Source of the DNA: Terriglobus roseus
GTDB lineage: Bacteria; Acidobacteriota; Terriglobia; Terriglobales; Acidobacteriaceae
Direction of reading: 5' to 3'
Assembly: GCF_900105625.1 (NCBI RefSeq)
Contig: NZ_FNSD01000001.1
Coordinates: 1,922,001-1,986,000, forward strand
DNA length: 64,000 bases
Of the stretch, positions 2,318 through 31,019 are shown piece by piece (position 1 is the stretch's first letter; every line of letters starts with the position of its first letter). Below the pieces are notes generated by a model, which worked only from the letters and a program-made list of their open reading frames with translations, made no database searches and was not told the origin of the DNA. The translations under genes and the position numbers were made by a program.

Positions 2318-3616
2318 TTAGTTCAAAAGTCCAGCTGCAAAGTCGAGCTCTGCGCGTCGTGACAGATAGGTGTAAGTTGCAGCCGCTGAAGTAATCTCTG
2401 CGGACGTCTCGTTGAGCTGTGCTTCGTTCAACTCCACAATGCTGCCAAGGCCCGCGTCGTACCGGTCCTGTGCCAGGCGCAGCGCTTCCTTGCTCTGCGC
2501 TACGAGACGGGCGGTGACGCCCAGGCTCCGATAGGCCTCGTCGGCCCGATACCACGCGTCGCGAACCTGCTCGTTCACCTGCAGTTGCACCTGCTCGACA
2601 TCGCGCTGACGTGCGGTGGCTTCGAGTTCTGCCTCGGCACGTCGTGCGGCAAACAGGTTGCCGTTGAAGACGGGAATGTTCAGGTTGAAACCCGCGGCAG
2701 CGTAATTGTCATGCAGGGTGTGATCGTGGAACGGAATCTGACCAGCCGCGCCCAGCACGTTGAGTGACGGATAGCTAAGCCGCTTCTCTGCAAGAGCAAC
2801 TTCATGCGCGGCCTGTTGCGATGCCTGCGCCGCACTTAGATCCGCACGCTGCGCCTGAGCCTGTTGCTGCAACGCATCGGGAGCGGGCGGCAGCGGGTCA
2901 GCGAGGGATGCCGGCTCCGTCAGAGTTTCGGTGACAGGCTTCGCTTGCCCCATAGCGGTCGCCAGTCGCGATCGATCCTGCGCGACCGCGCTCTGCGCCT
3001 GCACGACGGCGAGGTCGGCTTCGCTCTCCAGCACATTCGCGAAGTTCACATCCAGTGTCGAGCGCAACTCGCTCTGCGCCAGCGCGGATAACTGCCGCGA
3101 GATGAGATGGCGGTTCGCCTGCGCAGCTTGCGCTGCTCGCAGCACGGCCTCAGCACCCAGCGCGCCGAAGTAAGCTTCGCGCACGTTCAGACGAACCTGC
3201 GCCTTCGTCAGCGTTGCCATGTCAGCCTGTGCTGCAGACTGAAACTTCGCGCTGCCAATCAGGGCGTTCGTGCGACCGAAGTCCGTTACCAACTGCGTGA
3301 GATTGCCACCATACGCAAATCGATCGGAGACTGCGGACGTGGTGACATTGCCGGCAGCGGTTGAGGTACCGGTGTCTGCAACCAGTGCTCCCGTTGCGTT
3401 GAAGTTCACCGTTGGCAACAGGCCCGACCTTGCCTGACGGATACGTTGTGAGGAGGCGCGGGCGCGCAGTTGCGCGGCGAGTAACTGCGGCTGGCGGGCG
3501 ATAGCGGTCGCCTCTGCCTGGTCCAGTGTCAAAGCGGGCGCAGCCGTCTGCGCGTTCGCTCGAACGGCCGCTGCCAGCAGAAAGACAGCGATGCGGGAAG
3601 CGTGGGCGCTCGCCAT
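2318..3616 (-). CDS. TolC-like outer-membrane efflux channel
   Basis: 432 residues from the ATG at 3616; the frame stays open for 70 codons further upstream, but that part is the shadow of the preceding gene. The start overlaps the upstream stop by one base (TAATG), a coupling arrangement. A signal peptide (MASAHASRIAVFLLAAAVRANAQ) is followed by ALTLDQAEATAIARQPQL, the usual start of an OEP repeat. Two alpha-helical OEP repeats follow, with the characteristic NLNIPVFNGNLFAARRAEAE and the closing ALRLAQDRYDAGLGSIVELNEAQ. It should form the outer-membrane trimeric duct of the RND pump encoded directly downstream. Family assignment is confident; substrate is unknown. Confidence 0.92.
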   Translation of the reverse strand: MASAHASRIAVFLLAAAVRANAQTAAPALTLDQAEATAIARQPQLLAAQLRARASSQRIRQARSGLLPTVNFNATGALVADTGTSTAAGNVTTSAVSDRFAYGGNLTQLVTDFGRTNALIGSAKFQSAAQADMATLTKAQVRLNVREAYFGALGAEAVLRAAQAAQANRHLISRQLSALAQSELRSTLDVNFANVLESEADLAVVQAQSAVAQDRSRLATAMGQAKPVTETLTEPASLADPLPPAPDALQQQAQAQRADLSAAQASQQAAHEVALAEKRLSYPSLNVLGAAGQIPFHDHTLHDNYAAAGFNLNIPVFNGNLFAARRAEAELEATARQRDVEQVQLQVNEQVRDAWYRADEAYRSLGVTARLVAQSKEALRLAQDRYDAGLGSIVELNEAQLNETSAEITSAAATYTYLSRRAELDFAAGLLN

Positions 3617-4371
3617 TAACGGCTGGCCTGCTGCACGGGCAAAACCTCCAGCAGCGCCGTGGAATGCTTCGGTACTTCCGCCGCACGCCGTGCCGAGACA
3701 AAGGTCAGCGTGGAGGGCTGCGCCGCCGATCCCGTTTCCACAGCTCGCATACCGGTAAAGCCGTACACACCGCAGGCTGACGCCGAGTAGATCCCCATGG
3801 AGACTTCCGTCGATCCACCATCGCAACGTCCGCTCGCGATCAGGTGAGCATAGACACCGTCGCGACGGCTGTAAGCCACAACATCTCCATCTTTGTTCTC
3901 GATTCCTTCCTGCGAGGCGTACATCTGATCGCCGCCCACAAGGGTCCGCGTGCTGCGCGAATCCAGGTCATTCGATACCGGTGCGTACGCGTTGATGCTC
4001 GTGATGGAATCAGCAATCGCGCGGACCGTCACATGCAACGGAAGGGAGAGTGAACCGCTCTGTACGCTGTCAAAGCGAATTGAGAGCCGCGATGCTGCCT
4101 GCTTTGCATAAGGCGTCTTGTCGAAGGTGTAACCCGATACTTCAACAACGTGGCCCGTAACGCGTGCGCCGGAAGGAAGCACGGCACCGCTGGAGAGCTT
4201 AACCTGTTGGAAGGTCTTTGCCTCTACCAAGTCACCGGCCTTTGCGTGGCTTGCATCGACCGAATGCGTGAAGGTGATGGGCAAGGTAGTCGATGCGTCC
4301 AACCAGGGACTCTGAGCAGAAATAGCCAGCGGAGAAAGCAGCAGTAACGAGAAAGCGAGGGTGCGGGACAT
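3616..4371 (-). CDS. Secreted hypothetical protein, first gene of the efflux operon
   Basis: 251 residues from an ATG with a strong GGAGG five bases upstream. A signal peptide (MSRTLAFSLLLLSPLAISAQS) indicates export. I do not recognise a named family. The mature part is beta-rich and has the pattern KAGDLVEAKTFQQVKLSSGAVLPSGARVTGHVVEV. That pattern resembles the first domain of the PEGA protein at 26464-27354 (GQMVPFEVTEDVIVQGITVIPKGSP), so both may share a small SH3-like secreted domain. Two cysteines near the C-terminus could pair. It leads the efflux operon and overlaps the TolC-like gene by one base, so it is co-expressed, but a role in efflux is only inferred. Confidence 0.8.
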   Translation of the reverse strand: MSRTLAFSLLLLSPLAISAQSPWLDASTTLPITFTHSVDASHAKAGDLVEAKTFQQVKLSSGAVLPSGARVTGHVVEVSGYTFDKTPYAKQAASRLSIRFDSVQSGSLSLPLHVTVRAIADSITSINAYAPVSNDLDSRSTRTLVGGDQMYASQEGIENKDGDVVAYSRRDGVYAHLIASGRCDGGSTEVSMGIYSASACGVYGFTGMRAVETGSAAQPSTLTFVSARRAAEVPKHSTALLEVLPVQQASR

Positions 4372-4425
4372 AATGACCTCCGGGTCAGGACAGCGCCTGC
4401 TAGCCCGAAGTTGACCACCTGTTCG

Positions 4426-4455
4426 CCTTACACTCCCTTACAAGAATCTGACAAG
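4426..4455. promoter_or_regulatory. Direct repeats in the divergent efflux/two-component promoter
   Basis: The 149 bases between the divergent genes hold CCTTACA at 4426-4432 and again at 4436-4442 (10 bases apart), then ACAAG at 4440-4444 and 4451-4455 (11 bases apart). Direct repeats spaced by one helical turn are the usual binding pattern of OmpR/PhoB-type regulators, and one is encoded next door. Binding is inferred, not shown. Confidence 0.4.
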
Positions 4456-4520
4456 AGAAGAAGGCCGCTTGTACCCTGCGGTGCTGTACGGAATCATAGG
4501 TAGGGATAGGGGAAACACGC

Positions 4521-5216
4521 ATGGTGCAGGCTCGCTCGAAAATTCTGGTGGTTGAGGACGATCGAAAACTCTCCTCCGCACTGGTGTCGGGCATTGAGGC
4601 CGCCGGTTATGAGGTAAGCGCTGCCGCCTCTGCCGAAGAGGGTTTCTTCCTTCTGCACCGGCTGCAACCGGACCTGCTGCTGCTGGACCTGACCCTTCCC
4701 AATCGCAATGGCTTGGAAGTACTGCAACAGATTCGACAGGAAGGCCTCGATGTTCGGGTGCTAATCCTTACCTCGCACAACACCATTGATGACCGTGTTG
4801 CGGGCCTGAAGACGGGTGCCGATGACTATATGGGCAAGCCGTTTTCCTTCCCGGAGTTAATCGCTCGCATCGAAGCACTGTTACGCCGCGTGCTGCCGCC
4901 GCCTCCTCCGCAGAAGTTAGTCATTGGAGATCTTGCGCTGGATGTCCGCACTAGAACCGCCACACGCAGCGACACAAGACTGGAACTTACTGCGCGTGAA
5001 TTTGACCTATTGCTTTATCTGGCAGAGAGCAACGGCAGGACCGTTTCGCGCGAGATGCTGGCACGCGATGTCTGGCAGGAGACTTCGCGATACACGCCAC
5101 TCGACAACGTGATTGACGTCCAGATGGCCCGCCTTCGCCGCAAGATAGACGATCCCTTTCCCGTCAAATTGCTGCAGACAGTGCGCGGTATCGGGTTCAG
5201 CCTGAGGGAGCCCTAA
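4521..5216 (+). CDS. OmpR/PhoB-type response regulator
   Basis: 231 residues. The receiver domain (residues 1-120) has the acidic pair E12/D13 in VVEDD, phospho-acceptor D56 in LLLLDLTLP, T84 and K106 in the switch region. A winged-helix domain follows (about 130-230) with ELTAREFDLLLYLAE and the recognition segment VDVQMARLRRKID-like VIDVQMARLRRKID. The ATG is preceded by AGGGATAGGGG. It ends in TAA directly followed by the GTG of the kinase gene, so the two are translationally coupled. The pair is divergent to the RND efflux operon, the arrangement of CusRS/CzcRS-like systems that control metal or drug pumps, but the signal cannot be read from the sequence. Confidence 0.93.
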   Translation: MVQARSKILVVEDDRKLSSALVSGIEAAGYEVSAAASAEEGFFLLHRLQPDLLLLDLTLPNRNGLEVLQQIRQEGLDVRVLILTSHNTIDDRVAGLKTGADDYMGKPFSFPELIARIEALLRRVLPPPPPQKLVIGDLALDVRTRTATRSDTRLELTAREFDLLLYLAESNGRTVSREMLARDVWQETSRYTPLDNVIDVQMARLRRKIDDPFPVKLLQTVRGIGFSLREP

Positions 5217-22171: not shown

Positions 22172-23233
22172 TTACGGAGTGACAAATCCCGCCGCCAGCA
22201 CCGGCTTCAATTGCTCCCAGGGCAGCACCGCATCCTCCGGCTGGGCCACGCGAGGCGCGATGGTGTAATCGGGATAGCCGATGTGGAGGCCATCCTTCTC
22301 CAACGTCCAGTTCGTGGGATCGGCGATGACCTTTTGCAGATCGGGAGCACTGGGGCCGTTCACCTGTTCGAACAGATACTGCTTCCCGGACCACTTCTGC
22401 AACTGATCCCAGCAAAGCGCTCCTACAATCTGCTTCCACGCCTCCCCTGCGAAGACATCCTCGGCACGCAGCGTGCGCTTTGCATCCAGCAGCCAGGTCA
22501 TCGACTCGGAAGTCTCAAAGGGATGAGCGGCTCCGTGTCCCATACCGTTCGCGTGCAGCATGGCCGTCACGCGCCCATGGTCCACGCTGCGTAGATGCGC
22601 TTCCAGCGTTGTGTCCTGCGCCTCCGCCATCTCGTCCACCCATGAGAACGGCAGCTTGCGCTTGCCCTGCACAGTTCCCTGCTGCTCGCCCGCACCGGCC
22701 ATCCTCAGCATGTGAGCTTCCACCGCTGCGCTCCACGCGATCCATGCTGGATCGTCCGAGTCTGCGCGCGGCCAGCTTGCCTGCAGCGTGCCAAATCCCG
22801 GGATCTCTGGTGTGCCGAAAGCTTCCTCCGCCTGCACCGGCATCGCCAGGAACTGCGTGCGCTTCAGCAGTGTCAGACCATCGACCACGGAGATTGCAGA
22901 ACGGAGCTGCTTCGCGCGGTCCGCGTACAGCGGTTGCAGACATGCAGCGGCCTTCGGATGTTCTGGCTCATCCACCTTGCAGACCTGCTGGGACCAGGCC
23001 AGCCACTGCACCTGGTCGGCCCGCAAAAGCCCAATGCCAGCGGACGACAAGCGGGGCAAACCGGCACGATACGCCGCGGCCATGCCCGAGTCCGCGGCAC
23101 TGAGCTTCGCGTCGCCACAGATAACTTTCTCAATGGGACGTACGGCTTTCGCGCAGTCGAAACTTGCAGCGTAAGACGACACACAGGAGGCAGCGAGCGC
23201 GGCAAAGACCAGCGCGATGGGACGGAGTGACAT
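22172..23233 (-). CDS. Secreted LprI-like/DUF3298-type protein
   Basis: 353 residues from the ATG at 23233, with GGAAG six bases upstream. A signal peptide (ALVFAALAASCVSSYAA) is followed by FDCAKAVRPIEKVICGD and LSAADSGMAAAYRAGL, the cysteine-spaced pattern of LprI/lysozyme-inhibitor-like domains (cysteines pair at the start and at QQVCKVDE). The C-terminal 180 residues end in GLHIGYPDYTIAPRVAQPE and VLPWEQLKPVL, the pattern of the RsiV-like DUF3298 domain. Both domains bind lysozyme in known proteins, so defence against host or competitor lysozyme is possible. This is inferred from fold resemblance only. Confidence 0.75.
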   Translation of the reverse strand: MSLRPIALVFAALAASCVSSYAASFDCAKAVRPIEKVICGDAKLSAADSGMAAAYRAGLPRLSSAGIGLLRADQVQWLAWSQQVCKVDEPEHPKAAACLQPLYADRAKQLRSAISVVDGLTLLKRTQFLAMPVQAEEAFGTPEIPGFGTLQASWPRADSDDPAWIAWSAAVEAHMLRMAGAGEQQGTVQGKRKLPFSWVDEMAEAQDTTLEAHLRSVDHGRVTAMLHANGMGHGAAHPFETSESMTWLLDAKRTLRAEDVFAGEAWKQIVGALCWDQLQKWSGKQYLFEQVNGPSAPDLQKVIADPTNWTLEKDGLHIGYPDYTIAPRVAQPEDAVLPWEQLKPVLAAGFVTP

Positions 23234-23304
23234 ATTCGGCTTCCACAACTCCTGGGACTGCTGATGCAAGATACACCCGAGTCACAACGTCGGGGCAAAG
23301 CGAA

Positions 23305-23330
23305 AGCGCCGCCCGGTTGGGACGGCGCTT
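23305..23330 (-). terminator. Terminator of the glycine-zipper gene
   Basis: AAGCGCCG (23305-23312) pairs with CGGCGCTT (23323-23330). On the minus strand TTCGCTTTG follows. It is 20 bases past the stop at 23350. Confidence 0.65.
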
Positions 23331-23349
23331 CGGGTACATCCACTCACGC

Positions 23350-23682
23350 CTAGTAGCGACGGCCGCGCGAGTCATAACGAGCTTCATCGCGATGACGCTT
23401 GTTTGCATTGGCGTTGCCAACCAGAGCGCCGCCACCGGCACCCAGTGCGCCACCGATCAATGCGCCCTTACCGCCGCCCACGAGTGCACCGATACCAGCA
23501 CCGCCTGCGCCGCCGATCAGCGCGCCCTTGCCTGCGCCGATACCGCTATGACGCTTGTGGCGACGTCCGTGGCTGTCGCGGTAGTACTGCTGCGCGTGTG
23601 CGTCCGTCGTCATTACCAGCGGCGCCGTTGCGCCAAACATCATCACTGCACTCAGAACCAGACCCGTAAGTTTGTTGCGCAT
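23350..23682 (-). CDS. Small secreted glycine-zipper protein (YMGG-like)
   Basis: 110 residues from the ATG at 23682, with AGGGAGAG upstream. A signal peptide ends near TTDAHAQ. The mature protein has a basic Tyr/His/Arg head (YYRDSHGRRHKRHSG), then two glycine-zipper repeats built on GKGALIGGAGGAGIGALVGG, and a charged tail (NANANKRHRDEARYDSRG). Such zippers insert into or pack against membranes and are common in outer-membrane lipoproteins. A paralogue with the same build lies at 31532-31921. The function is unknown. Confidence 0.85.
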   Translation of the reverse strand: MRNKLTGLVLSAVMMFGATAPLVMTTDAHAQQYYRDSHGRRHKRHSGIGAGKGALIGGAGGAGIGALVGGGKGALIGGALGAGGGALVGNANANKRHRDEARYDSRGRRY

Positions 23683-24028
23683 CTCTAGAACTCTCCCTTG
23701 CCGCAAGGAAGCGGCTTACCACTTTTCTGCATACTGAAAGATAGATGCGTCGTGCCGTACGTGCGAGGCCTGACACACCGCATAAATTGCAGAAATTGCA
23801 AGAAGCACGCAGGTGCGCTGCGCCGCCGCACCAACCCCTGCCAGCAGACGTGTTACCGTGGCAATCAACACTCCGCACAGCGACTGACGGTATGCTGTCG
23901 AAGTGCCAGCCAAAGCCAGGCGCCCACCCCTGCGCTGCTTTGCGGTCCGGACACAAAATCAGAAAGCATCATGGTGGCGAATCGGATTCGCTGCCTACCT
24001 GGCTTCGCAGAGGGGGAACTGCAAAGAA

Positions 24029-26236
24029 ATGCCGCATAACTCCGTTGCCACAAGGAGAACTCTCACAGCGCTGCTGATACTGTCTCTGGTTCCGCTGCTG
24101 TATTTCGCCCCATCGCTCCTGACCCGCGCCTTCTCATCCAGCTATCTTCCCCATGGCGTCTGCTACATGTGGGACAGGCAATTGCTCGGCTTCAGTGTCT
24201 CGGCCGATGCCGTCATCTTTCTCTCGTATGTTGCCATCGCATCGATGCTGACATGGATCGCCTACCGCAACCGCCGGGAGATTCCCTTCGGCGGAATGTT
24301 TGCTGCATTCGGTGCTTTCATCGTCGCCTGCGGCCTGACGCACCTGATGGACATCATCGTCCTGTGGCATCCGTACTACTGGCTCGCCGTAGACATCAAG
24401 ATCATTACGGCCGTTGCCTCTGCCATCACAGCCTGCCTGCTGCCTCCGTTGGCGCCAGCCCTTCGCAGCATGGTGAAGGCAGCCGCCATCTCGAAGAAGG
24501 CGCAGGCCGAACGGGAACAGGCGCATGCCTTCACCCGCTCCATCATTGACAGCTCCTCCTTCAGCATCATCGTGACCGATCGCAACGGAACCATCGTCTC
24601 CGCGAATCCGGCCTCCGAGCGCATGCTCTGGTACACCACGGCTGAGCTTACGTCGAACCAGAACATTGCATCGCTCATTCCCCAGCAGGAGATCACTGCA
24701 CGCGCAGCCGAACTCACCGACGACCTGGGGCAGGCCACTCCGCCGGATGCCAGGGCACTGATGGCACGCGCAGGCATGGGCCTTATCGATGAAGGCGACT
24801 GGACCTTCGTCCGCAAGGATGGATCCACCATCCCCATCCGGCTCACGGTGTCAGCTCACTCCGGTGTCAGTGGCGTTGAGGGTTATATCTTCACTGCCTT
24901 CGACATCACGGAGCGGCTGCGCAGCCAGGAATACCTTCGCCACGTCGCCACGCATGATGCACTGACCGGTCTGCCCACGCGTGTGCTCTTCCGCGATCGG
25001 CTTGATGTTGCACTGGGCCGCGCTCGCCGCTATCAGCAGGCCGTCGCCGTCATCATGATTGACCTCGACAACTTCAAACGGATCAACGACTCCATGGGTC
25101 ACCAGGCCGGTGATGAGGTCCTGGTCACCGTAGCCCAGCGGCTCCGCGACGCCGTGCGTGTGACCGACACCGTCGCACGCATGGGCGGCGACGAATTCGT
25201 CGTCATCCTCAGCGATCTTCGCGAACCGAAGGTCGGCGGCCAGCTTGCACAGAACCTGCTCGACTGCCTCGCCGTTCCCATCGTCGTCAACCAGCAGGAG
25301 ATCGTCGTCACGGCCAGCATGGGCATTTGTACCGACACCGTAAATGCCGACGCCGTCTCCATTCTCAAGAACGCGGACCTCGCACTCTATCGCTCCAAGA
25401 CCAATGGCAAGAACCAGGTCTACTGGTACACGGAAAACATGAAGCATGCGACCATCGAAAAGTTGCAGCTGGAAACCAACCTGCGGCTGGCGATCGAGCG
25501 TGACGAACTTACTCTGCACTACCAGCCGCAATTCTCACTCAAGACCGGCGCATGCACCGGCATGGAAGCACTCCTGCGCTGGGAGCGCAAAGGCCATGGC
25601 GTCATCATGCCAAGCGAGTTCATACCGCTGGCCGAAGAGACAGGACTGATCGTCCCCATCGGCAACTGGGTATTGCACCGAGCCTGCCTGGAAGCCGTTC
25701 ACCTCTTTCAGCAACTCGGGAAGAACCTGACCGTCGCGGTCAATATCTCGCCGCGACAGTTTCTCGATAAGAGCCTCTTACGGAATATTGAGATGGCACT
25801 TAGAAACAGCGGCCTGGCGCCCGGCTCCCTCGAGTTGGAAATTACAGAAAACATCCTGATGCATGACGAAGAATCTCTTGTGCTGCTGGAACGCGTACGC
25901 GACCTCGGCGTGCGCGTCTCCATCGACGACTTCGGCACAGGCTTCTCCTCCATGGCCTACATCACACGCTTCTCCATCGATCGGCTCAAGATCGATCAGT
26001 CCTTTGTTCGCAACGCCACCACCGACGCCGGCAACGGAGCCGTCATCACCGCAATCATCGCCATGGCACACGGCCTTGGCGTGGAAGTGCTGGCCGAAGG
26101 CGTCGAGACCGCGGAGCAACTCGGCTTCCTGCTGCAGCATGGCTGCGACGCAGCACAGGGCTACCACTTCTCCCCACCGGTCGTAGCGTCAGAGATGATC
26201 CAGCACTTCAGCCCACGCAAATTTCCAACCGCCTGA
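24029..26236 (+). CDS. GGDEF-EAL c-di-GMP protein with ethylene-receptor-like membrane domain and PAS
   Basis: 735 residues from the ATG at 24029, preceded by GAGGGGGAA. Residues 12-150 hold four likely membrane helices. Helices two to four match the copper/ethylene-binding domain of plant ETR1: D60, Y67, I98, C101 and H105 (AFGAFIVACGLTHLMD), with the ETR proline replaced by A71. A PAS domain (about 168-285) is followed by a GGDEF domain with an intact GGDEF at 386-390 and an RxxD inhibitory site five residues before it. The EAL domain has E513-A-L, DDFGTG and LAEGVET, all intact, so both cyclase and phosphodiesterase activities are possible. It is a stand-alone gene. What it senses is inferred only from the helix motif. 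Confidence 0.93.
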   Translation: MPHNSVATRRTLTALLILSLVPLLYFAPSLLTRAFSSSYLPHGVCYMWDRQLLGFSVSADAVIFLSYVAIASMLTWIAYRNRREIPFGGMFAAFGAFIVACGLTHLMDIIVLWHPYYWLAVDIKIITAVASAITACLLPPLAPALRSMVKAAAISKKAQAEREQAHAFTRSIIDSSSFSIIVTDRNGTIVSANPASERMLWYTTAELTSNQNIASLIPQQEITARAAELTDDLGQATPPDARALMARAGMGLIDEGDWTFVRKDGSTIPIRLTVSAHSGVSGVEGYIFTAFDITERLRSQEYLRHVATHDALTGLPTRVLFRDRLDVALGRARRYQQAVAVIMIDLDNFKRINDSMGHQAGDEVLVTVAQRLRDAVRVTDTVARMGGDEFVVILSDLREPKVGGQLAQNLLDCLAVPIVVNQQEIVVTASMGICTDTVNADAVSILKNADLALYRSKTNGKNQVYWYTENMKHATIEKLQLETNLRLAIERDELTLHYQPQFSLKTGACTGMEALLRWERKGHGVIMPSEFIPLAEETGLIVPIGNWVLHRACLEAVHLFQQLGKNLTVAVNISPRQFLDKSLLRNIEMALRNSGLAPGSLELEITENILMHDEESLVLLERVRDLGVRVSIDDFGTGFSSMAYITRFSIDRLKIDQSFVRNATTDAGNGAVITAIIAMAHGLGVEVLAEGVETAEQLGFLLQHGCDAAQGYHFSPPVVASEMIQHFSPRKFPTA

Positions 26237-26463
26237 TGCGTGCAAGGCTCGTTTCGCCTGATCGCTAACATCCGTCTTACACCGCGGACGTACTTACCCG
26301 GTACGAGCTATCTCCCTCAAACGCTTGTTATGCGGTTTCCATGACGCGTTCACGCTCGACTTTCGGGCGAGACGACAGCGCGCATGAAATATTCCTCACT
26401 TTGACCTGTACATGGCGGATGCGCTCGCATACGCTTGCCACACTCCACAAATCAGGTCCCCCA
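26237..26463 (+). promoter_or_regulatory. Intergenic region upstream of the PEGA gene
   Basis: 227 bases with no protein-like frame and no clear hairpin. It should contain the promoter for the gene at 26464; no boxes stand out. Confidence 0.3.
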
Positions 26464-27354
26464 ATGAAACCTCTTGTTGCACTGCCTCTAGCAGGCGTTC
26501 TTGCGCTTGGTCACTCTGCTTTCGCCCAGTCCGTGGCGGCTCCAATAGCCACCACCCCACAGGCCGCCACCACCGCACAGGCCGTCACCACCGCTCCCCC
26601 AGAGGTCCCGCGCGCAGCCGTTCCGAACACCCTTATGGACGGCACTTCCGTCTCTCTGCGCATCGCTGAGACGATCTCCTCAGCCGATGCGCATGTGGGA
26701 CAGATGGTGCCCTTCGAAGTGACGGAAGACGTCATCGTGCAGGGCATCACCGTCATTCCAAAGGGAAGCCCGGCGATCGCGAATGTCACCGCAGCCGAGT
26801 CAAAGAAGCGCATGGGCCGCGGCGGCAAACTCGACGTCGTCATCGACAGCGTCCGCCTCGCCGACGGCAGCAAGGTTCAACTCAGCGCCACCAAGAACAC
26901 CAGCGGCGGCGGACACGTGGGAGCCATGACCGGCGCCATGGTCGCCACCAGCATCGTCTTCTTCCCCGCCGCACCACTCTTCCTCTTCATGCACGGAAAA
27001 GACATCACCATCCCCAAGGGCACACCCATCACCGCCTTCGTAAAGGGCGACACCAAACTCGACATGGCCCGCCTGGCGCCAAAGCCTGTAACACCGACAG
27101 ACGCAACAGCAGCCACCCTTATACCCGCAGCCGCAACACTCAACACAGCCAGCCTGCAGATCGAAAGCAGCGTTCCCGGAGCTGATATCGAGATCGACGG
27201 AGCCTTCGCCGGCAACACCCCATCCACACTCGCCGTAGCGCCCGGACAACACACGATCGCAGTCAAGAAAAAGGGCTACACCGACTGGACGCGGACCATG
27301 AACGTCAGCGGGAGTGCGGTTCACTTGAAGGTGGATTTGGAGACGGCAAAGTGA
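26464..27354 (+). CDS. Secreted PEGA-domain protein
   Basis: 296 residues from the ATG at 26464. A signal peptide ends at GHSAFAQ. A Pro/Ala/Thr-rich linker leads into a beta-rich domain (residues ~55-205: VGQMVPFEVTEDVIVQG, VIPKGSPAIANVT). This resembles the secreted protein at 3616-4371. After a second linker a PEGA domain follows (residues ~230-290: IESSVPGADIEIDGAFAGN, TIAVKKKGYTDW), a surface beta-sandwich common in cell-surface proteins. A hydrophobic stretch near FFPAAPLFLFM may be buried or membrane associated. The last four bases overlap the GTG of the next gene. Confidence 0.83.
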   Translation: MKPLVALPLAGVLALGHSAFAQSVAAPIATTPQAATTAQAVTTAPPEVPRAAVPNTLMDGTSVSLRIAETISSADAHVGQMVPFEVTEDVIVQGITVIPKGSPAIANVTAAESKKRMGRGGKLDVVIDSVRLADGSKVQLSATKNTSGGGHVGAMTGAMVATSIVFFPAAPLFLFMHGKDITIPKGTPITAFVKGDTKLDMARLAPKPVTPTDATAATLIPAAATLNTASLQIESSVPGADIEIDGAFAGNTPSTLAVAPGQHTIAVKKKGYTDWTRTMNVSGSAVHLKVDLETAK

Positions 27355-28076
27355 AGCTCCCAGTGTGGGCAAAGGTCAGCTACTGGATGATGCTTGTCAT
27401 CCTGGTAGGATCTGTCCTCCTACGAAGACTTGACCTGATAGTGGCGGGCGACTCGACTCCATTTGACTCAGTCATCTTTGTCATTTGGATCGCTTTATTG
27501 CTGGCGCCTATATTTAGCGAGGTTAAGATTTGGGGAGTCGAACTAAAGCAGGAAGTTAAAGAAGTCAAGAAGGAGCTAAGTCGAGAAATCGAGTCGGTTA
27601 GAGCAATGGTGACTAACCAAGTGGTGGTAACCTCCAATTTTGGTACACTTGCCCCTCCCGCAGAAAGTGAAATGCCTCGGATTAAAGAGGAAGTGGAACG
27701 TGCGATACCTCAAAAATTGAACGACAAGTCGTACCGTGAAAACGAGCACAACAGAGCGATTCCTCTTGATGCGATCTTCCTTTTTTCTGTTCGATATCAG
27801 TTGGAGGAGCAGGTTCGCCGTATAGGCATTCACACCGTCGACGAACCGCATCATATGCCGTTCCTTAGATTAATTTCGCTACTGAAACGTCACGGCGCAA
27901 TATCGGAGTCGCTAGCTCTCGCAATAATCGACGTCTACCGGATCTGCAGTCCAGCGATTCACGGTGACACAGTCTCTCAGTCCCAGGTCGCATTTGTGCG
28001 CGACGTTGCCCCAAGATTGATCGTTAAATTGAGTGAAATACAGTCGATCTCAAGCGCCGCCCCCCTCGGCGACTGA
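27351..28076 (+). CDS. Membrane protein with coiled coil and HEPN-like C-terminal domain
   Basis: 241 residues from a GTG that overlaps the previous stop by four bases (GTGA). Two membrane helices lie at about 8-24 and 40-57, followed by a charged coiled coil (GVELKQEVKEVKKELSREIE). The C-terminal domain (about 120-235) is helical and carries R197-ICSPAI-H204, an RX6H motif of the kind found at the active site of HEPN ribonucleases, in the context YRICSPAIHGD. The segment VAFVRDVAPRLIVKL after it fits the last HEPN helix. Base composition is clearly more AT-rich than the genes on both sides, which suggests acquisition. Family membership is my reading of the motif, not certain. Confidence 0.75.
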   Translation: MKLPVWAKVSYWMMLVILVGSVLLRRLDLIVAGDSTPFDSVIFVIWIALLLAPIFSEVKIWGVELKQEVKEVKKELSREIESVRAMVTNQVVVTSNFGTLAPPAESEMPRIKEEVERAIPQKLNDKSYRENEHNRAIPLDAIFLFSVRYQLEEQVRRIGIHTVDEPHHMPFLRLISLLKRHGAISESLALAIIDVYRICSPAIHGDTVSQSQVAFVRDVAPRLIVKLSEIQSISSAAPLGD

Positions 28077-28788: not shown

Positions 28789-30936
28789 TTATTTCATCGG
28801 GATGCCCGATGGAACAAAGCTCTCGCCCTTCAGGTAAGCGCCCAGGCGTATCGGGCTGCCGTGCTGGACGGTGATCATCCGCTCTGTCTTTTCTCCGGGC
28901 TTGAGAGAGAACGGGATCTCCGTCGGCGCTATAGTCCCGCCTTCCGCTCCCTGGTCGGTCCACATCTGAAAGGTGCCGGTCTGCGTGCTGCGTCCCTGGT
29001 TTTCGATCGTCAGCTTTGCTTGCGTTGGGCTCACTTCCGTCAACCGGCGCGCGACCTGCGGTGTATCGATGGCAAGCCCCATGCCTCGGATCCATGCCGG
29101 GTTCCATACGGGTCCTTGCGGATGGATCTGGTTGCCGGAGGAGTCCATGTTTTTCTCCGTCAACTTGTCGCGATAATCCACCCATACTCTGCACCAGCAC
29201 TGGTTGTCGTGGATGGCGTTGCCTGTCGGCATGCCCGGCGGCTGGTCCAGGAATTGCAGCAGTTGCGGATAGCGGCTGCGCCATGGTTCTTCCTTGTAGG
29301 GCATCGCCTTCAACCGGTTCAGGAGTGCCGGGTTGGTCCCATCAAAGTAAGCCTTCTGCCAGCCCATGCCGCGTGCGTCGAAGTGGACGCCGATGTCATC
29401 GTCGACGAAGCGGTTCTGCTCCAGAACATTGTCGTTACCGCCGCCGATCTTCACACCCCGAGCGGATCCCCGAATGACATTGCCTGTCACGAAGGACCCA
29501 CTCGATTCGTCATCCAGATAGATCGCGTTGATATCTCCCAGGCCGAGATTATGAAAGTAGTTGTCGCGTACCGTGTTGCCACGCTCCGTGGTGTCCGCGC
29601 CGATGTAATAGGCGCTTGCGTCGGCCGTCTCCATGGCCACGGTATGGATGTCGTTCGCTTCGATAAGGTGCTCGTTCCCATGCACCCAGATGGCAAAGTG
29701 GGGTGCATGGTCAATGGTGTTGCCGGTAACGCGATTCCCCACGCCTGACACGTTAATCGCCGGCGTATAGGTACGCGACCAGCGAGCGTAGTCGTGAATG
29801 TGATTACGCGCTGCGACGTGCGCCGCTGCCGTGAGGGTTCTGCGATCGCCACCATCGAGAACAATACCGCCATCACCCGTTGCGCGAATCTCCGAGTCTT
29901 CGACCGCATCCCCTGCTCCGCCGCGGATGACCACGCCTGCGTTACCGGTATTGGCAATCGTGCAATGTTGAATGCGGTCATGGTCGCCGTCCTGAAAGAC
30001 GATCCCGTCGGCACGAGTCAGTGCAAAATCCATGTCGTGGAACTCCACGTACGAAGCACCTTCCACACTGACCAGTGGCTTATCGAGCAGGGAGACCTCC
30101 GCCGTTCCAGAGGCAATGGGAGACGGCGGCCAGAAGTACAGGACACCCGCCGCGCGGTCCAGATACCACTCACCCGGCTCGTCCAGTTCCTCCAGCACAT
30201 TCACTAACTGCCAGCGCTGCCCGGCCCTGTAGTTGTAATTCGGATTGGGCGCTGCGGTGTCGATCACATGGTGAGCCGTATCAATGGCAGTGATGCGTTC
30301 GTAATGATCGGCCCAGTCGTAATACCAATAGCCGTGAACCCATGCATCGGGAGCCTTTGCCCACCGTGCCGCGCGCTCACCCTCATAAGCAAACTGGTTC
30401 TGGGACTTATCCCTTGTGGCTGCGGCGGTGTAGGCCCAGCCTGTGTTCGGCCATCGGGCCAGCGTCATCGGCCGCCCCTGGAAGAACAACTCCAACGCGG
30501 CAAGGTTCGGCCGCCCCATGCCGCGCGAGACGATCTCTCCATAGTTCGTGATGCCCTGTGCACGCAAATCCGCGCGCAGGATCTTATCGTGCCATTTTCT
30601 GAAGTGAGTGATCGGCGCGCCGCCAACGAGGCGCACCTTCTCGCCCGGCATGGCGCGATAGATCACGGGCGCCATCGCAGTTCCGCTATCTGCGGAAGTC
30701 AGTGCGAATGTCGTTGTCCGGCGGTATTCTCCGGCTCGCAGCCAGATGGTGATGGGTGCATCATGCCTCGCGGCGCGTGCTGCGTCCCGCGCTCGTTCGA
30801 GTGATGCAAAAGGCCGCGCCTTTGTGCCGGGATTTGTGTCCGCTCCCCTGGGTGAAACATACAGGTCTTCCCCATGAAGCGGCGCTGCAGAACAAAGCGC
30901 CAGCAACAAAAGCGCCATTAAAGACCGCGCGTACAT
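28789..30936 (-). CDS. Secreted right-handed beta-helix protein (GH141-like)
   Basis: 715 residues from the ATG at 30936; earlier codons in the frame look non-coding. A signal peptide (MYARSLMALLLLALCSAAPLHG) is followed by DLYVSPRGADTNPGTKARPF and WLRAGEYRRTTTFALTSADSG, the standard N-terminus of beta-helix carbohydrate enzymes. Helix turns run from about residue 230 to 500 (DRIQHCTIANTGNAGVVIRGG, DSEIRATGDGGIVLDGGD, HLIEANDIHT, NVIRGSARGVKIGGGND). The C-terminus is a beta-sandwich (TIENQGRSTQTGTFQMW). This architecture occurs in GH141 and related polysaccharide-degrading enzymes, so plant cell-wall breakdown is likely. The catalytic residues cannot be assigned by eye. Confidence 0.85.
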   Translation of the reverse strand: MYARSLMALLLLALCSAAPLHGEDLYVSPRGADTNPGTKARPFASLERARDAARAARHDAPITIWLRAGEYRRTTTFALTSADSGTAMAPVIYRAMPGEKVRLVGGAPITHFRKWHDKILRADLRAQGITNYGEIVSRGMGRPNLAALELFFQGRPMTLARWPNTGWAYTAAATRDKSQNQFAYEGERAARWAKAPDAWVHGYWYYDWADHYERITAIDTAHHVIDTAAPNPNYNYRAGQRWQLVNVLEELDEPGEWYLDRAAGVLYFWPPSPIASGTAEVSLLDKPLVSVEGASYVEFHDMDFALTRADGIVFQDGDHDRIQHCTIANTGNAGVVIRGGAGDAVEDSEIRATGDGGIVLDGGDRRTLTAAAHVAARNHIHDYARWSRTYTPAINVSGVGNRVTGNTIDHAPHFAIWVHGNEHLIEANDIHTVAMETADASAYYIGADTTERGNTVRDNYFHNLGLGDINAIYLDDESSGSFVTGNVIRGSARGVKIGGGNDNVLEQNRFVDDDIGVHFDARGMGWQKAYFDGTNPALLNRLKAMPYKEEPWRSRYPQLLQFLDQPPGMPTGNAIHDNQCWCRVWVDYRDKLTEKNMDSSGNQIHPQGPVWNPAWIRGMGLAIDTPQVARRLTEVSPTQAKLTIENQGRSTQTGTFQMWTDQGAEGGTIAPTEIPFSLKPGEKTERMITVQHGSPIRLGAYLKGESFVPSGIPMK

Positions 30937-31019
30937 CAGGATCAACAGCGCCCCCGGGAAAACCCTACTTTCTACCGGGAGATACCGTATCCCTCTCACC
31001 GCAGCCTTGGCAAAGAGAA

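Follow-up and report, generated by a model that had tools for sequence, protein, structure and literature searches.

A putative c-di-GMP enzyme of Terriglobus roseus with an ethylene-receptor-type input domain and a likely copper site

Described ethylene-type receptors and the architecture of the window protein

ETR1 of Arabidopsis possesses a three-helix Cu(I) domain which is coupled to a histidine kinase and a receiver. Seven residues of this domain were found via alanine scanning (PMC11819568), and I35, P36, I62, C65 and H69 are listed among the essentials for ethylene binding, with credit to Wang et al. 2006 (PMC6586836). For copper delivery in plants, the carriers RAN1, ATX1 and CCH have been proposed (PMC6656775). 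Bacterial receptors of the ethylene type reveal a wide range of output domains (PMC7700396), although the term GGDEF does not occur in that paper. In AzoEtr1 of Azospirillum brasilense, an ethylene-binding-type domain carrying all seven residues is followed by a PAS domain; ethylene binding and an effect on biofilm were demonstrated for this protein, whose output is a histidine kinase with a neighbouring response regulator (PMC11819568). SynEtr1 (UirS, PixA) of Synechocystis, which combines the domain with a cyanobacteriochrome and a histidine kinase, as well as GeiEtr1/2, for which all seven residues were reported, have one N-terminal cysteine that possibly stands in for the disulfide-forming cysteines of the plant receptors (PMC6682694). 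In the literature searched, as far as accessible, no tested ethylene-type receptor with a c-di-GMP output was met, and the main text of a review on c-di-GMP stimuli contains neither the word ethylene nor the word copper.

The window, i.e. the whole stretch of 64,000 nucleotides that was analysed, contains an ORF whose product (the window protein) differs from these receptors by its GGDEF-EAL output. The preliminary description had given position and frame of this ORF correctly (735 amino acids plus stop), as well as its acidobacterial host. A longer reading of the same ORF would begin with a GTG at 23903, while a purine-rich stretch, judged by eye, lies immediately 5′ of the ATG at 24029. No match to a sigma-70-type promoter was detected in 23300-26700. 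The profile match to ETR1_N (PF25487; 94.7 bits at a cut-off of 27, E 4.1e-27) covers positions 2 to 96 of 97, which excludes a chance motif and makes membership of the predicted protein in this family firm. The genome has no other ETR1_N match, and none of 14 control genomes contained one. The matches to PAS, GGDEF (E 6.1e-47) and EAL (E 2.4e-72) also exceeded their Pfam cut-offs, so the proposed fusion of an ETR1-type domain to PAS, GGDEF and EAL held. With NCBIfam, a generic GGDEF domain model was over the cut-off; the 25 matches listed include 24 equivalog models, all of them under theirs. The putative diguanylate cyclase carries the hallmarks GGDEF (386-390) and RxxD (RVTD, 377-380), and the signature stretches of the EAL domain are intact (EALLRW 513, NISPRQF 572, ELEITEN 602, DDFGTG 633, LKIDQSF 653, LAEGVET 688, AQGYHF 709). 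With these, the catalytic motifs of both c-di-GMP domains and the metal motifs of EAL are complete in the sequence.

Table 1. Features of the window protein and its gene
Feature	Position	Strand	Basis
ORF: N-terminal helix, ETR1_N (ethylene-binding-type) domain, PAS, GGDEF, EAL	24029..26236	+	translation, Pfam, AlphaFold2
Additional predicted N-terminal helix, aa 6-34, probably transmembrane, ahead of ETR1_N	24044..24130	+	AlphaFold2, block pLDDT 64-79
PHGVC motif (H42, C45) preceding sensor helix 1; family-wide co-loss with the copper pair	24149..24163	+	covariation counts
ETR1_N domain, aa 52-147; predicted helices 50-80, 88-113, 117-164	24182..24469	+	Pfam E 4.1e-27, AlphaFold2
D60 (ETR1 D25)	24206..24208	+	alignment
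Y67 (ETR1 Y32)	24227..24229	+	alignment
A71 at the place of ETR1 P36	24239..24241	+	alignment
C101 (ETR1 C65), predicted Cu(I) ligand	24329..24331	+	alignment
H105 (ETR1 H69), predicted Cu(I) ligand	24341..24343	+	alignment
PAS domain, aa 168-297	24530..24919	+	PAS_9 E 2.5e-8, PAS E 3.1e-7
GGDEF domain, aa 307-463; GGDEF 25184-25198, RVTD 25157-25168	24947..25417	+	Pfam, motifs
EAL domain, aa 484-717	25478..26179	+	Pfam, motifs

Copper-site residues and the P36 position

In an alignment with ETR1, D60, Y67, I70, I98, C101 and H105 correspond to D25, Y32, I35, I62, C65 and H69, and A71 to P36. D60, Y67, A71, I98, C101 and H105 stand where the preliminary description had placed them, and its spacings (D to Y 7, C to H 4, D to C 41 compared to 40 in ETR1) are right. 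Its statement that among the listed residues only the proline is replaced is also true, but the list omitted I35; as this residue is kept as I70, six of the seven ethylene-binding positions are conserved, and the complete set is missed by A71 alone. What further separates the window protein from ETR1 is the PHGVC motif and the additional N-terminal helix.

The structure of residues 1-165 was predicted by AlphaFold2 with an alignment of 68 sequences (of 73 rows, five near-duplicate Duganella rows were omitted; the other rows had all been collected by a CxxxH pattern). The model (mean pLDDT 88.4) comprises the helices 6-34, 42-45, 50-80, 88-113 and 117-164, the last of which continues toward the PAS domain. 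D60 and Y67 are located in helix 50-80, C101 and H105 one turn apart in helix 88-113, the helix-2 cysteine and histidine being scored here by their presence only. Being i and i+4 of one predicted helix, C101 and H105 would not point apart, judging from the helix limits of the model. A solved relative was not found in the PDB (best Foldseek match E 0.7, single phmmer match E 0.51).

The sensor is genuinely related to that of the plant ethylene receptors, and its copper-binding pair is intact. A copper site is likely, and the protein probably senses something through copper. Since alanine is harmful at P36 in ETR1, the window protein naturally has the harmful residue, and because of this replacement, copper-based sensing is the probable function with ethylene only as a candidate ligand; as physiological ligand, ethylene is doubtful, being weakened by A71. 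Among 217 non-redundant domains, 72 of which had been collected by the CxxxH pattern, the P36 place is most often occupied by Pro (115), Ser (43), Ala (29), Phe (9) or Cys (8). In the 215 domains collected without this pattern, all seven ETR1 residues are kept in 90 and the other six without the proline in 30. H42, C45, C101 and H105 are all kept in 137 of the 215, and 45 of these 137 have the proline replaced, so this position is variable even where the rest of the site is preserved.

These counts bear on the possibility that the protein is an ethylene receptor in the sense of ETR1 and AzoEtr1, in which ethylene at low levels would occupy the copper site and thereby control c-di-GMP, with the change from proline to alanine tolerated in this background. 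The six conserved positions and the 45 proline-less domains with an otherwise intact site agree with it. P36, on the other hand, is listed as essential in ETR1 (PMC6586836), AzoEtr1 (PMC11819568) and GeiEtr1/2 (PMC6682694) were reported with all seven residues, and in the accessible parts of the literature consulted no tested bacterial example lacking the proline was met. On this balance, such a receptor is conceivable but rather unlikely. Somewhat less probable still is a copper or thiol-redox sensor, whose signal would be the Cu(I) occupancy or the oxidation of C45/C101 instead of a hydrocarbon. The 30 domains that keep the other six residues without the proline are in line with it, and so is the loss of an extra cysteine, mostly accompanied by a histidine, together with the copper pair (see below). 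However, four further residues with ethylene-binding counterparts in ETR1 (D60, Y67, I70, I98) are likewise retained, and none of the neighbouring genes searched is a clear copper-handling gene, the nearest to one being that of a beta-helix protein which matches NosD secondarily.

Co-loss of the N-terminal HxxC motif and the copper pair

To the 217 rows, 237 loci contributed (5 gave no domain, 16 duplicates were dropped); the loci are part of the profile matches (at most 30 per search), further ones having been hand-picked with low-scoring ones favoured. As the 72 CxxxH-pattern rows have the pair by construction, they were excluded from the covariation counts, leaving a discovery set of 145. 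For the tree and the likelihood test, the truncated or very divergent domains L024, L131 and L026 were also omitted (142 rows). A second set of 72 loci, mostly from two other groups, yielded 70 domains after removal of two duplicates; 17 of the 72 loci stem from a cyanobacterial sample, where 6 of them score below 50 bits and the other 11 between 98 and 127, and two partial or stop-containing matches of a Bradyrhizobium-class sample are not included.

In the discovery set, 101 domains have both the copper pair and HxxC, 8 the pair only, 2 HxxC only and 34 neither (p 4e-23, kinship ignored), the cut-off domains L024 (motif only) and L131 (pair only) being counted. The corresponding numbers of the second set are 36, 16, 2 and 16 (p 2e-5), and for C45 alone against the copper pair 47, 5, 6 and 12. 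Thus 16 of 52 copper-pair proteins of this set do not have H42/C45 as a pair. Eleven of the 16 form one clade with RWxC, in which the cysteine is kept and the histidine lost; ten of the eleven have a histidine a few residues further (HGW or HGI). In these eleven proteins of the Chthoniobacter-phylum sample (L308-L313, L315-L319), PxRWxCGxW, mostly followed by HGW, replaces PHxxCYxW while the copper pair is kept.

Kinship was considered by trees from which the trait columns had been excluded, with contrasts taken on well-supported branches; the trees result from quick searches with one model, and long branches may draw degenerate domains together in them. In the 142-domain tree, the copper pair provides six independent contrasts; HxxC followed its direction in 5.4 of them and ran against it in 0.0 (C45 singly followed in 5.2, H42 in 4.2). 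Seventeen other conserved columns, used for 18 control tests, gave 0.98 to 3.06, the binding positions D60, Y67, I70 and I98 scoring 0.98 to 2.17. With 212 domains and nine contrasts, HxxC followed the pair in 6.8 and ran against it in 1.0, the controls ranging from 0.72 to 3.31 (maximum I98). The median p of the sign test was 0.0625 (142 domains) and 0.07 (212 domains), the contrasts being too few for firm significance.

With the overall conservation held, the copper pair predicted HxxC in the 142 discovery rows with a likelihood ratio of 59.4, compared to 20.3 for the best of 46 other conserved columns (G102). The 70 rows of the second set gave 11.7 for HxxC, 8.7 for C45 and 6.5 for H42, while Y67 (20.2) and I98 (12.6) were higher; HxxC hence behaves like a binding-site residue, not better. 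For both sets together (212 rows), the values were 50.9 (HxxC), 35.2 (C45) and 28.1 (H42), and 34.2 for the best other of 46 columns (Y67). The co-loss is therefore not put down to general decay alone, since the copper pair predicts HxxC beyond overall conservation. At the level of single domains, L127 keeps 0.93 of the conserved columns, yet it has lost C101, H42 and C45; the equally conserved L116 is a counterexample with C101 lost and HxxC kept.

Altogether, the covariation suggests that an N-terminal cysteine, usually together with a histidine, acts as a component of the functional copper site, which it would load, hold or complete. The single N-terminal cysteine of the cyanobacterial proteins may form the dimer disulfide, according to PMC6682694. 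C45 may do so too, but this role by itself leaves the histidine and the tie to the copper pair unexplained. It is tentatively proposed that PHxxC (here H42 and C45) completes or loads the CxxxH Cu(I) site of bacterial ethylene-receptor domains and that, in proline-replaced proteins including the window protein, the site reports copper or a non-ethylene ligand to c-di-GMP; we regard this as possible without favouring it. No paper on this motif was found in the main texts of the openly available literature. The main interest of the window protein is this co-loss and its testability, less the type of fusion: thanks to the co-loss, the way in which receptors of bacteria acquire and hold copper could be examined inexpensively by mutation, and a receptor and enzyme in one protein would directly report, by c-di-GMP made or cut, what such domains sense.

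Relatives, proposed mechanism and genomic setting

Among the 217 ETR1_N proteins, the output is a kinase in 126, GGDEF in 13 and GGDEF plus EAL in 12, whereas none was seen in 66. For many loci, the stretch collected about the domain is just 1.5 kb long; the GGDEF and EAL counts are therefore lower bounds, and at least 25 of 217 are fused to GGDEF or GGDEF plus EAL. The fusion to c-di-GMP domains is therefore a recurring form and ordinary as a fusion type; it had been called notable, and while the fusion is real, its notability is reduced. A group of four proteins of the cyanobacterial sample (L232, L234, L235, L327), the first three with GGDEF output, lacks HxxC, carries CGFHH in helix 2 and has a histidine where the window protein has D60, which is possibly a different metal site.

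In the domain tree, the window protein belongs to a clade of 12 members (support 91), nine of which have lost the copper pair; it is kept in the window protein, L035 and L151. The pair is lost in eight of the ten GGDEF-bearing members including both from the same genus, L005 and L007. These two share the ETR1_N fold and PAS-GGDEF-EAL with the window protein (48% identity over about aa 152-723), but H105 is replaced by Tyr, Y67 by Ser and HxxC by YxxW. Unlike the gene of the window protein, which has PEGA as a neighbour, that of L007 does not adjoin PEGA. A third ETR1_N domain from the genus (L009), which has a kinase output, has lost C101. The nearest domain is that of L035, an uncharacterised protein of a Rhodanobacteraceae MAG at 0.97 substitutions per site, which likewise comprises EBD-PAS-GGDEF-EAL with intact Cys/His and HxxC (identity 48% over 584 aa of PAS-GGDEF-EAL, 55% in the domain) but has a serine at the P36 place. 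That ETR1_N is now a mere membrane anchor with leftover copper residues, sensing being left to PAS or other inputs, is improbable: six GGDEF-EAL proteins (L005, L007, L028, L032, L164, L165) and two with GGDEF seen (L021, L166) did keep their output after losing the copper pair, so the output stands without it, but the retention of H42, C45, D60, Y67, I70, I98, C101 and H105 over the distance to L035 is unexpected under drift.

We consider it fairly probable that the window protein is a membrane-bound c-di-GMP enzyme with a copper-dependent input domain of the ethylene-binding type. Cu(I) would be bound by C101 and H105 in helix 2 of the three-helix bundle, facing D60 and Y67 of helix 1, and the H42/C45 pair would help to load, hold or complete this site. 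Either Cu(I) as such or a small ligand bound to it (CO, ethylene or a different alkene) might alter the helix packing, and via helix 3, which is predicted to be continuous from 117 to 164 toward the PAS domain, the balance between synthesis by GGDEF and breakdown by EAL would shift. While domain homology, conserved residues, helix layout and co-loss were observed, we infer copper binding, the ligand and the direction of the output. In favour of the chain count the ETR1_N match along with those to PAS, GGDEF and EAL, the six positions, the pLDDT and helix layout, the covariation and the ethylene binding of AzoEtr1, a comparable receptor from a bacterium (PMC11819568). Against it stand A71, the copper-site losses in L005, L007 and L009, the 16 second-set proteins that have the copper pair but not HxxC, the few tree contrasts and the lack of a solved relative and of a clear copper or ethylene neighbour. 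The preliminary description is confirmed as an observation and partly supported in its interpretation.

At E <= 0.001, ETR1_N was detected in 7 of 61 related genomes and 3 of 19 of the genus (own genome included in both), in 18 of 396 of the phylum sample and in 61 of 250 of the family sample. The family would be that of Granulicella rosea and Acidobacterium sp. S8, as ETR1_N match coordinates in this sample are identical to those in the records of these two. The numbers elsewhere were 53 of 194 for the phylum of a Microseira genome, 20 of 288 for that of a Chthoniobacter genome, and 15 of 321 and 28 of 385 for the classes of a Duganella and a Bradyrhizobium genome. In one genome of the same genus (G010), h20897, GPx, glycine-zipper and PEGA are arranged in the same order as in the window. 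Window positions 23426-23676 and 26425-27311 align to 2819-3072 and 3810-4696 of its locus L262, between which there is no match to the receptor or LprI. In two further genomes (G008, G017), GPx lies near PEGA without a receptor match there. The receptor gene is thus present in some genomes and absent from others, by gain or by loss, at a site whose surroundings are conserved; its GC content (0.598) is close to that of the window (0.601).

Among the ten neighbour proteins searched, Pfam identified DUF480, GPx, LprI/DUF3298, glycine zipper (under the cut-off), PEGA, SnoaL, a beta-helix protein and GFO/IDH/MocA, two being without family; an ethylene gene or a clear copper gene was not among them. 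The beta-helix protein (28789-30999, minus strand) is encoded about 2.5 kb downstream on the opposite strand. Its better match is Beta_helix (E 3.1e-19), the secondary one to NosD (E 1.2e-11) being also over the cut-off; by its family name, NosD is a periplasmic copper-binding protein, but the match probably reflects the shared repeat fold only. The LprI/DUF3298 gene (22172-23269, minus strand) near the receptor gene is, like the latter, without a match at the syntenic place of G010. The gene 27351-28076 (plus strand) has no Pfam match and a GC content of 0.493 compared to 0.601 in the window. In the genome as a whole, the window protein has matches at 38 places, almost always through GGDEF, EAL or PAS, which suggests a large c-di-GMP repertoire.
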